A stretch of 64,000 nt of DNA from Candidatus Dormiibacterota bacterium (lineage in GTDB: Bacteria > Chloroflexota > Dormibacteria > CF-121), in NCBI GenBank assembly GCA_035544955.1, contig DASZZN010000014.1, forward strand, positions 62,001 to 126,000, in the 5' to 3' direction. Position numbers and translations under genes: made by a program. This document shows, one piece after another, positions 31,878 through 35,247 of this stretch. Below the pieces are notes generated by a model that had not been told where the DNA came from, did not search any database, and was given only the letters and a program-made list of their open reading frames with translations. Position 1 is the stretch's first letter, and the number at the start of each line of letters is the position of its first letter.

Positions 31878-33350
31878 CTGCTGGCCAAGCAGCACCCCCG
31901 CCCTGCAGCTGCGCTTCTCTTTGGAGGTGCAGCGTTAGGCGTCATTGCCCTTCACCTTGCAACCAATGGCACGCTGGGCTTCCATACCGATGAGCTTTAC
32001 TACCTCGATTGCGGTCGCCATCCGGCGTTTGGCTACGTTGACTTCCCGCCCGTCGTCCCACTCCTCGCGCGGCTAGAGACCGGACTCCTCGGCGTCACTC
32101 CCTGGGCCCTCCGCCTGCTCCCGTCGCTGCTGGGCGGTTTTCTCGTTGCCCTCTCCGGCGCCTATGTCCGCCGGCTGGGCGGTTCGCTGCGGCTCCAGGG
32201 TCTGGCGCTGCTGACGGCGATTGCGGCGCCTTACCTGCTCGGTTCGAACTGGGTCTTCCAGACCGTGACCTTCGATCAGGTGACATGGATGGTCGCCCTC
32301 TACTGGTTTCTCTGCCTCGTTCTCGACCGGCGGCCTCGGTACTGGATCTATCTGGGCATCACGCTCGGGATCGGGCTCGAGGTGAAGTACACGGTCGTTG
32401 GTCTCATCCTCGGCATCGCCATCGCGATCCTTCTGACTCCCTCGTTGCGGATGCAGCTGCGATCGAAATACCCCTGGATCGCGGCCGCGAGCGCGCTCCT
32501 CATCTTGGCCCCAAATCTCGTCTGGCAGGTCGTCGAGGGCTTCCCCTCGCTCACCTACATCACCAACCATGGAGGGAGCGGCGGCGGCCCCGTCATTTAC
32601 CTCATCGAGATCGCCGTGTACTTCTTCTTTCTTCTTCCTTTATGGCTCGCTGGCATGATTTCGTTGTTCCGCAGTCGGCTGCTGCGTCCAATCGGAATTG
32701 CCTGTGCCGTTCCGCTGCTCCTTTTCCTCTTCGTCGGGAAGTCCTACTACGCGGCCGGGACGGTTCCGATCGCGGTGGCGCAAGGACTGATGGCGGTCTC
32801 CCACATCAGGCGGCCACGGCTTCGCTCCGGCCTCGAGATCGCTGTCGTCGTGGCGAGCCTGCTCGAATTCGCCACGTTCTTTCAGCTCGTAGTCCCGGTC
32901 ACGCCGCCAGATCGGCTTCACGCCGCCGGTCTCGATTCCAAGAACCCGGTCTTTGCCGACAGCGTGGGGTGGGCCGACATCGCGAACCAGGTGACCAAGA
33001 TCTATCGCGATCTCCCTGCATCCGAGCGCAGCAACACGGTCATCATCTCGGCCTACTACGGCGTTCCGGGAGCGCTCCAGATCTATGGCGATCCCAAGGT
33101 CCTTCCCCCCGTCGTCAGTCCACAGCTCAGTGACTTCTACTGGCTACCGAACAACCTCACGGCCATTGACGCGCTCATGGTGGATTACCAACCGTCCGAC
33201 GTGGGGTGGATGTGTACGTCACCAACGCTCATCGCACACCTCACCGTGCCGTACAACGTCAAGGGTCTGGAGCAAGGCGCACCGGTTACCTTCTGCCATC
33301 TCAAGGCTCCCGTCCCAAAGATCTGGCGACAGCTTCGCAACTTCTCTTGA
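31878..33350 (+). CDS. Family-39-type membrane glycosyltransferase (CTG start)
   Basis: About 490 aa, a multi-spanning enzyme using a polyprenyl-linked sugar donor. The catalytic-loop Asp-Glu pair is in GFHTDELYYLDCGRHP, followed by GYVDFPPVVPLLARL, features diagnostic of the N-terminus of this family. That part lies upstream of the first GTG (32265), and no ATG/GTG/TTG exists between an in-frame stop near 31848 and 32265. A CTG at 31878 with GAGGG (31863-31867) 10 nt upstream gives full family length. CTG at 31881 is equally possible. It begins 13 nt after the Fe-S gene. Confidence 0.82.
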   Translation: MLAKQHPRPAAALLFGGAALGVIALHLATNGTLGFHTDELYYLDCGRHPAFGYVDFPPVVPLLARLETGLLGVTPWALRLLPSLLGGFLVALSGAYVRRLGGSLRLQGLALLTAIAAPYLLGSNWVFQTVTFDQVTWMVALYWFLCLVLDRRPRYWIYLGITLGIGLEVKYTVVGLILGIAIAILLTPSLRMQLRSKYPWIAAASALLILAPNLVWQVVEGFPSLTYITNHGGSGGGPVIYLIEIAVYFFFLLPLWLAGMISLFRSRLLRPIGIACAVPLLLFLFVGKSYYAAGTVPIAVAQGLMAVSHIRRPRLRSGLEIAVVVASLLEFATFFQLVVPVTPPDRLHAAGLDSKNPVFADSVGWADIANQVTKIYRDLPASERSNTVIISAYYGVPGALQIYGDPKVLPPVVSPQLSDFYWLPNNLTAIDALMVDYQPSDVGWMCTSPTLIAHLTVPYNVKGLEQGAPVTFCHLKAPVPKIWRQLRNFS

Positions 33351-33354
33351 TCGA

Positions 33355-33383
33355 TTGACTTCGGTTGCTGAGTGCGGTACTGT
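33355..33383 (+). promoter_or_regulatory. Promoter of the ABC exporter leader
   Basis: TTGACT (33355-33360), 17-bp spacer, TACTGT (33378-33383). The start point would be near 33390, leaving a leader of about 180 nt that holds hairpins and an intrinsic terminator. Confidence 0.55.
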
Positions 33384-33392
33384 ACGGAGGCT

Positions 33393-33467
33393 ATGAGGCA
33401 CCGCTATCTCACAGGCACCCCCACGACCTTCAGGGGCGGAGCCTGCCCACGGGCCTCACAGTATTGA
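33393..33467 (+). CDS. Possible 24-aa leader peptide
   Basis: ATG at 33393, near the predicted transcription start, opens a 24-codon frame (MRHRYLTGTPTTFRGGACPR, then ASQY) ending at TGA 33465-33467. It spans both strands of the first hairpin and the strand that can pair with the terminator, so ribosome movement could control read-through. GGAGG lies too close to act as a normal ribosome site; leaderless initiation is more likely. Evidence is positional only. Confidence 0.35.
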   Translation: MRHRYLTGTPTTFRGGACPRASQY

Positions 33468-33534
33468 AAGCCAAGTAATTTAGATCCCGACTCGAGCGCT
33501 TTCGACCGTGCGGCCCAGAGGCCCACGGTTTTTT
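33394..33534 (+). promoter_or_regulatory. Attenuator/riboswitch-like leader
   Basis: P1 pairs TGAGGC (33394-33399) with GCCTCA (33453-33458) and encloses AGGC/GCCT (33413-33416, 33441-33444) and CCCC/GGGG. The P1 3' strand GGGCCTC (33451-33457) is also fully complementary to GAGGCCC (33518-33524) inside the terminator. Forming P1 frees the terminator; losing P1 allows an antiterminator. No known riboswitch class was recognised. Confidence 0.55.
33505..33534 (+). terminator. Intrinsic terminator within the leader
   Basis: ACCGTG-C-GGCC, loop CAGA, GGCC-CACGGT, followed by TTTTTT and a further T-rich stretch. It lies 35 nt before the ABC ATPase ATG, so it must be bypassed for expression. Confidence 0.75.
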
Positions 33535-33568
33535 GTTGTTTATCGCAATTCATCGAGGAGTTGAGATC

Positions 33569-34414
33569 ATGGCGATCCACAAAAGCGAATTGAATACGGC
33601 GGCGGTCGAGGTCGAGGGCATCTCGAAGCGCTTCGGCGAGGCCAGCCGTCCGCATCGGCTGATGCCATGGCGCAAGGCGAAAAAGCCGAAGCTGGCGCTC
33701 GACAATGTGTCCTTGCATGTTCCGGCCGGCCGGATCACAGGCATCCTGGGCGCCAACGGAAGCGGGAAGTCGACGCTGATCCGGATCCTGGCCACGCTGC
33801 TCACCCCCGATGAGGGGACTGCGTCAGTCTTCGGTTACGACGTGGTGTCGCAGCCGGACGCCGTGCGCCGCCACATCAACCGTGTCTCGGTCGAGGCCTC
33901 CTTCTTCAAGGAGATGAGCCCCTGGGAGAACATGCTCTACGCCGCGCGCCTCTACGGCAGCGGCGGCGAGGGCACGCGGGCCCGGGTGGAGGCGATGTTG
34001 GAGCGGCTCGGACTGCCGCTCGACACACTCGACAAGCCGATGAAGCAGCTCTCGCGTGGCCAGCAGCAGAAGGTCGCCATTGCGCGCAGCTTCCTGACAA
34101 CTCCGTCGCTGCTGCTGATGGACGAGCCGACCACCGGGCTGGATCCTCGGTCCAAGCGTGAGGTCCAGGAACTGGTGCGATCGATCCGGCGGGATCGCGC
34201 GGCCACCGTCCTGCTCTGTACTCACGACCTGCAGGAAGCGGAGGTGCTCTGCGACCGCGTCGTCGTCATCGACCAGGGCCGGGTGCTGGCGGACGGCACC
34301 CCCGCCGAGCTGATTCGCATGCATGCCGGCAAGGCCGACGGCAGCCTGGAGGATGCCTTCATGGCGCTGACCGGCAAGCGGCTCGAGGAAGACGAAGAGG
34401 AGAAGGAAGAATGA
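33569..34414 (+). CDS. ABC exporter ATP-binding protein
   Basis: 281 aa ATPase of an ABC-2-type exporter. Walker A GANGSGKST (about residues 64-72), ABC signature LSRGQQQKVAIARS (about residues 161-174), Walker B LLLMDEPTTGLD and the switch His in CTHDLQEAE. An acidic tail (EEDEEEKEE) ends the protein. The ATG at 33569 has a GAGGAG site. It overlaps the permease gene by 4 nt. Its leader carries a conditional terminator, suggesting induction by a signal such as a drug or metabolite. Confidence 0.93.
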   Translation: MAIHKSELNTAAVEVEGISKRFGEASRPHRLMPWRKAKKPKLALDNVSLHVPAGRITGILGANGSGKSTLIRILATLLTPDEGTASVFGYDVVSQPDAVRRHINRVSVEASFFKEMSPWENMLYAARLYGSGGEGTRARVEAMLERLGLPLDTLDKPMKQLSRGQQQKVAIARSFLTTPSLLLMDEPTTGLDPRSKREVQELVRSIRRDRAATVLLCTHDLQEAEVLCDRVVVIDQGRVLADGTPAELIRMHAGKADGSLEDAFMALTGKRLEEDEEEKEE

Positions 34415-35247
34415 CCGGAAATGCGCTTCGCTGGGAGCTCAACGCGTTCGTCGGCTTTATCGAGAGGCAGAAGAACCTCTACCGCCGCTACTGGGCGTGG
34501 GAGGCGGTTTGGCTGCTCTACAACCTGGTCAGTGTGCTCAGCATCGGCTACCTCGCGGCGGGGCTGTCGACGCTTGGTCTGGAGCAGGGGCAGGCGAACC
34601 TGCATCAGACGCAGCTCTACCTGCTGGTGGGGGCGCTGCTCTGGACCTACCTTTCGCTCGTGTTCTTCGAAATCTCCTTCGCCATTACCTGGGAACGGTG
34701 GGAGGGAACGATCGAGTACACGTTCATGGCACCGATCAAGCGGCTGACCCACCTGCTGGGTGTCTCCGCCGCCTCGCTGCTCTACGGGATGGCCCGGACG
34801 GCGGTGATCGGCGTCGCGCTGCTCTTTCTGTTCAAGATCGACCTGTCGCATGCCAACTGGCTGACGGCGCTAGCGATCTGCGCGGCCGCGACGCTGCCGC
34901 TGCTGGGCCTGGGGATCTTCACCTCGATCCTGCCGCTCCTGTCGCCGGAGAAGGGCGAGCAGATGGCGTTTGCGGTCCAGGGCGTACTGCTGCTCATCTC
35001 CGGCGTCTACTACCCGATCACGGTGCTACCGGTGCCCCTGCGTCTGGGGGGCCTCCTCTCGCCGCTGACCTACACGCTGGACGGGGTCCGCGAGTCGCTG
35101 CTCCACGGGCTCTCGCTGGCCGGGGCGCTGCCCGACATCGGCATCTTGGTGCTGATGGGCGTCATCCTGGTTCCCTCCTCCGTTTTCTTCTTCCGGCGAG
35201 CGGAGATCCGCGCCAAACGGCTGGGGCTGTTGAAGCGAAGCGGCTAA
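34411..35247 (+). CDS. ABC-2-type exporter permease
   Basis: 278 aa with six predicted membrane segments and the ABC-2 layout: an extended N-terminal amphipathic part (RRYWAWEAVWLLYNLVS), FEISFAITWERWEGTIEYTF before the coupling region, and the GVYYPITVLPVPLRLGGLLSPLTYTLDGVR segment near the end, typical of drug/lipid exporters. Partner of the preceding ATPase. Substrate unknown; homologous systems export antibiotics, lipids or polysaccharides. Confidence 0.9.
   Translation: MTGNALRWELNAFVGFIERQKNLYRRYWAWEAVWLLYNLVSVLSIGYLAAGLSTLGLEQGQANLHQTQLYLLVGALLWTYLSLVFFEISFAITWERWEGTIEYTFMAPIKRLTHLLGVSAASLLYGMARTAVIGVALLFLFKIDLSHANWLTALAICAAATLPLLGLGIFTSILPLLSPEKGEQMAFAVQGVLLLISGVYYPITVLPVPLRLGGLLSPLTYTLDGVRESLLHGLSLAGALPDIGILVLMGVILVPSSVFFFRRAEIRAKRLGLLKRSG

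Follow-up and report, generated by a model that had tools for sequence, protein, structure and literature searches.

A candidate ribosome-mediated transcription attenuator upstream of a DrrAB-related ABC exporter in the Chloroflexota

The trp attenuator of Escherichia coli carries a regulatory codon run in its leader. Its alternative 1:2, 2:3 and 3:4 pairings are set by the position of the ribosome (PMC4191407), and the leader described here has the same three-way arrangement; it differs in that a regulatory codon run is absent and the controlled gene encodes an exporter. In the bmrB-bmrCD system of Bacillus subtilis, ribosome-targeting antibiotics slow translation of the leader and read-through increases (PMC4191407). 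The likeness to our locus is close, as the bmrB leader ORF overlaps the predicted anti-antiterminator, antiterminator and terminator and lies upstream of a multidrug ABC exporter; however, bmrB has 53 codons with the terminator inside it, whereas here the ORF has 20–25 codons and the terminator lies past the stop codon (PMC4191407). The present leader is likened to bmrB by architecture, from sequence alone. The streptococcal mef(E)/mel (msrD) system (PMC4335068, PMC10314930) also has a leader peptide and attenuates the transcription of a gene for a drug transporter or an ABC-F protein; the signal there is a ribosome-bound macrolide, whereas peptide conservation in our leaders is weak.

The leader lies in the window, the 64,000-nucleotide stretch of DNA analysed here, which is part of a 3.67-Mb genome in 52 contigs (G000). 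Close relatives of that genome in the public record are soil 'Chloroflexi bacterium' metagenome-assembled genomes. The 218 bases between the end of the upstream gene (33350) and the ATG of the exporter ATPase gene (33569) contain a promoter, a 24-codon ORF and an intrinsic terminator. The features, in window coordinates, are as follows.

Ending at 33350, + strand: glycosyltransferase-like gene upstream, on the same strand as the exporter
33355–33383, + strand: predicted sigma-70 type promoter, read from the sequence
33355–33360, + strand: −35 hexamer TTGACT, followed by a 17-nt spacer
33378–33383, + strand: −10 hexamer TACTGT
33390–33399, + strand: strand 1, GCTATGAGGC, which includes the leader start codon; putative anti-antiterminator with strand 2
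33393–33467, + strand: leader ORF of 24 codons, MRHRYLTGTPTTFRGGACPRASQY, from ATG at 33393 to stop TGA at 33465–33467
33451–33459, + strand: strand 2, GGGCCTCAC, close to the ORF end, with strand 1 or strand 3 as partner
33466–33503, + strand: small hairpin, GAAAGC (33466–33471) with GCTTTC (33498–33503), in the predicted fold, nested in the antiterminator
33505–33534, + strand: intrinsic terminator ACCGTGCGGCC-CAGA-GGCCCACGGT followed by six Ts, from sequence and folds
33508–33516, + strand: strand 3, GTGCGGCCC, in the terminator 5' arm; putative antiterminator with strand 2
33556–33560, + strand: Shine-Dalgarno sequence AGGAG of the ATPase gene, read from the sequence
33569–34414, + strand: DrrA-like ABC exporter ATPase, 281 aa (PF00005; TIGR01188 below the model cut-off)
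34411–35247, + strand: DrrB-like ABC-2 permease, 278 aa (PF01061), overlapping the ATPase stop codon

The promoter and the terminator with its six Ts are found where the initial annotation had placed them. The promoter scores below threshold in a simple consensus scan, yet both hexamers are conserved throughout the genus, where the sequence 5' of them gives no alignment; from the promoter spacing, the transcript would start near 33390. The terminator (ACCGTG-C-GGCC-CAGA-GGCC-CACGGT at 33505–33529, with Ts at 33529–33534) stands between the promoter and the first structural gene, as expected of an attenuator, an arrangement that is retained in relatives; the terminator itself is kept in all 13 members of the window's family (f1).

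At the DNA level, a search recovered the leader from another 10 genomes of the genus, as well as from two other genera of the family, and a class-wide permease search returned orthologues about 59–62% identical in two more families (f2 and f3). Of 46 complete upstream regions in front of the orthologous exporter in these three families of the class, 45 contain the same leader (13/13 in f1, 8/9 in f2 and 24/24 in f3, L089 with its frame break included). The exception, L094 (f2), has a promoter-like stretch and an ORF preceded by a Shine-Dalgarno sequence and no U-run terminator, and control there may act at the level of translation. The window's ORF would be nearly leaderless, with a 5' UTR of about 3 nt if transcription starts at 33390, as against an additional 5' hairpin and Shine-Dalgarno sequence before the ORF in most f3 leaders and in L013 (with predicted transcript starts), which suggests that the ORF start was kept when the 5' end was replaced entirely.

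By profile scores the exporter is related to the DrrAB type and is not a member of it by the curated models (TIGR01188, 241.8 bits against a cut-off of 312.45; TIGR01247, 43.1 bits against 223.05). BmrCD is an ABC exporter of another type. The longest ORF for the ATPase (33533–34414) begins with TTG at 33533, in the T-rich terminator tail, and the conserved start is the ATG at 33569. A comparison of the permease with solved structures gave no match at E 0.01. An S11 peptidase gene 3' of the permease was considered as a clue to the substrate and set aside because its position is not shared by relatives. In several f3 genomes (L069, L071, L074, L075 and L076) an MraZ-like ORF was seen, by eye only, 3' of the permease; the MraZ gene is usually the first of the division and cell-wall cluster.

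The initial annotation had described a 24-codon ORF near the predicted transcript start that covers the switching strand, and its start, stop and phase prove to be conserved in all three families. Across 44 leaders the ORF has 20–25 codons (60–75 nt without the stop), every length being a multiple of three, and divisibility by three holds in 44 of 45 leaders; the stop is TGA in 42 of the 44 and TAG in 2, and a GGAG-type Shine-Dalgarno sequence is present in most f2 and f3 leaders, that is, in most that have a 5' UTR. L089 shows a 1-nt frame break near the ORF end, from either an assembly error or a real loss, which extends its ORF to 27 codons. Aligned bases within the ORF agree in codon phase in 100% (f1), 100% (f2) and 92% (f3) of pairs, figures somewhat favoured by the choice of ORFs for openness; the safer evidence is the contrast with the spacer and terminator downstream, where agreement is 81% (f1, calculated without the terminator ends of L005–L007, which the T-run rule removed), 40% (f2) and 65% (f3). 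By eye, the shortfall within the f3 ORFs is due at least in part to L106 and L108, where a compensated +1/−1 change places the middle of the peptide in another frame and keeps start and stop, so that start-to-stop translation seems to outweigh the peptide.

Third codon positions are not enriched in substitutions in f1 and f3, and only slightly in f2, and BLOSUM scoring prefers frame 0 in f1 and f2 only; frame 0 is the worst frame in f3, where neither the codon-position nor the BLOSUM test found amino-acid constraint. These comparisons give little sign of selection on the amino acids of the leader peptide, a result that is easier to reconcile with translation sensing in general than with a riboswitch or a specific arrest peptide. 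Together, the conserved phase and the unconcentrated substitutions suggest that what is kept is less the product than the passage of a ribosome between a fixed start and a fixed stop, and from the conserved frame, start and Shine-Dalgarno sequence we infer that the leader ORF is translated.

Three mutually exclusive pairings fall within 33355–33534. The initial annotation had paired GGGCCTC (33451–33457) with GAGGCCC (33518–33524) as antiterminator; the first of these is indeed the switching strand at the ORF end, but its main partner is GTGCGGCCC, as GAGGCCC spans the terminator loop and 3' arm and is less conserved. Strand 2 pairs in the terminator 5' arm with GTGNGGNNN, and its end lies 2 nt (f2 and part of f3) or 5 nt (the window's genus and the rest of f3) before the stop. 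Over the 44 loci, 348 of 396 pairs (88%) of the 2:3 pairing are standard in register, a value somewhat favoured by the choice of offset for each subgroup by inspection, against 34–49% when the arms are slid by 1–3 positions. When the arms were permuted among distinct rows, a procedure that ignores shared ancestry, 0 of 5000 permutations did as well; inside a single family the permutation was not significant (493/5000) because the arms are nearly constant. Covariation appears between families, with G-C (f1) against A-U (f3) at one position and G-C against C-G at another.

The ORF end can alternatively pair with the start-codon or Shine-Dalgarno region, which is the 1:2 pairing; its core in the window is the P1 stem of the initial annotation, TGAGGC (33394–33399) with GCCTCA (33453–33458), present as described. 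The leaders' own combinations of these strands have a mean of −15.8 kcal/mol against −13.0 kcal/mol for permuted ones, with 0 of 5000 permutations as good, also within families. Strand 1 varies in sequence among subgroups and the pairing persists, with clear examples in L102 (TTTGATGTGCGGT with ACCGCACATTGA) and L113 (GGCTCGG with CCGAGCC). The antiterminator thus excludes the terminator and the anti-antiterminator excludes the antiterminator, as in known attenuators, and both pairings are conserved in relatives, the lack of which the initial annotation had named as grounds for rejecting its proposal. The GAAAGC/GCTTTC stem is absent from some relatives (L004, L009). Taken alone, the fold of the window is mildly unusual (z = −1.98), and GC-rich shuffles likewise pair frequently, so that single loci carry little weight; the signal beyond chance is that both alternative pairings, and with them the frame, start and stop of the ORF, are retained in dozens of relatives.

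We folded the RNA of the 44 loci up to strand 3 with the 5' part masked to the front edge of a ribosome. In nearly all of them 2:3 has a probability close to 1 as long as the ORF end is exposed, and close to 0 once it is masked; for the window the drop comes 60–66 nt from the start codon. As the front edge of a ribosome lies about 15 nt ahead of its P site, a ribosome that has gone no further than about codon 16 would leave the switch on. With no ribosome, and before strand 3 emerges, the probability of the 1:2 pairing averages 0.92 (f1), 0.74 (f2) and 0.99 (f3); in the complete leader, the fold of minimum energy contains 1:2 and the terminator together. At equilibrium, the ribosome-free leader RNA of the window has 2:3 at 0.96 once strand 3 has emerged, so termination there without translation would depend on the order of folding or on the terminator in its complete form.

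We therefore favour, at a probability of roughly 0.85, a ribosome-mediated transcription attenuator of the trp/bmrB type upstream of the exporter. RNA polymerase would transcribe a leader with a short ORF ahead of the exporter genes, in which strand 2 alternates between strand 1 and strand 3, and strands 3:4 form the terminator. If the leader is untranslated, 1:2 would form first and leave 3:4 free to form, and transcription would end; if translation runs to the leader stop, strand 2 would lie under the ribosome, 3:4 would form and transcription would again end. A ribosome stalled within the ORF (in the window, at or before about codon 16) would leave strand 2 free to pair with strand 3, and the exporter would be transcribed. 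Stalling as the trigger of read-through agrees with the masked folding. The natural inducers may be compounds that slow translation, antibiotics among them, and are perhaps removed by the exporter. The initial annotation's idea of translation-sensing attenuation, as known for resistance transporters, is thus supported by the conserved ORF and by its end being the switching strand.

The same switch could be operated by a specific nascent chain, for example FRGGAC at codons 13–18, that arrests the ribosome in response to a given compound. Family f1 retains FRGGAC or a close variant of it, GG[AV]C...AH or GE[AV]R...AH recurs in f3, and the last stall site that frees strand 2, about codon 16, falls within the FRGGAC motif. 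However, this motif overlaps the RNA pairing, and the codon-position and BLOSUM results, together with the out-of-frame middles of L106 and L108, make an arrest peptide unlikely.

Direct binding of a small molecule by the leader, with the ORF incidental, would account for the strong nucleotide-level conservation of AGGGGCGGAGCCTGCC within the ORF, third codon positions included, and for the compact hairpin found there in the window. Yet the conserved stretch is not the same between families, and start, stop, phase and Shine-Dalgarno sites survive many length changes. The Rfam search that the initial annotation had proposed matched no family, either at the gathering score or with E values allowed up to 10, and no covariance model assigns the leader to a described riboswitch family; the two sub-threshold matches were a miRNA family and an archaeal snoRNA family. 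With an ORF in every leader of this type, the unrecognised riboswitch that had been offered as the other possibility is quite improbable. An amino-acid starvation attenuator, as in the trp or his operons, would have the identical three-way architecture, but there is no single-codon run and no codon at the stall position common to all families, and what is controlled is an exporter rather than an operon for biosynthesis or uptake, so we regard it as very improbable. Nor is it credible that the terminator simply serves the upstream gene (same strand, end at 33350) beside a chance ORF, as a conserved promoter separates that gene from the terminator, the same leader occurs under different upstream contexts in other families, and pairings and frame are retained despite sequence change.

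A bmrB/trp-type attenuator, new for this lineage, is well supported by the architecture; a narrow search of the open-access literature found no report of exporter attenuation via leader translation in the Chloroflexota. With such a conserved switch, the exporter probably responds to a block in translation, a hint that it has a part in the defence against soil antibiotics. The leader could be a ready-made reporter for finding the compound, and the leaders provide a clean natural series: sequence and peptide vary across them, but the three pairings and the frame do not. In the window's own genome, a pattern for further GG-A-C-type ORFs matched 47 times, the reversed-pattern control 32 times, and four such regions on inspection lacked the attenuator architecture.

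Outside the class, we searched 400 genomes of the phylum, 178 of which had a permease match at E 1e-40; 20 upstream regions were taken and 14 had an ATPase match and sufficient upstream sequence. A scan found an intrinsic terminator in 9 of the 14, and six of them also have a plausible leader ORF (L119, L123, L130, L134, L135 and L136), with strong 1:2 and 2:3 pairing in L130. Look-alike leaders in other classes of the Chloroflexota are plausible on this survey. We suggest, tentatively and with some doubt, that such attenuators are phylum-wide, with the start-codon region as anti-antiterminator strand, general translation sensing, a drifting peptide and one exporter as the sole target found. 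Two of the leaders from other classes, L119 and L130, have two tandem terminators before the ATPase gene. In two actinobacterial genomes, one of them from the Gaiellaceae, the mini-ORF MTLFFG* is conserved between a TTGACA box and an ATPase gene whose product is 51–53% identical (L032:1-209 and L033:2700-3000), perhaps another type of leader attached to a related exporter.
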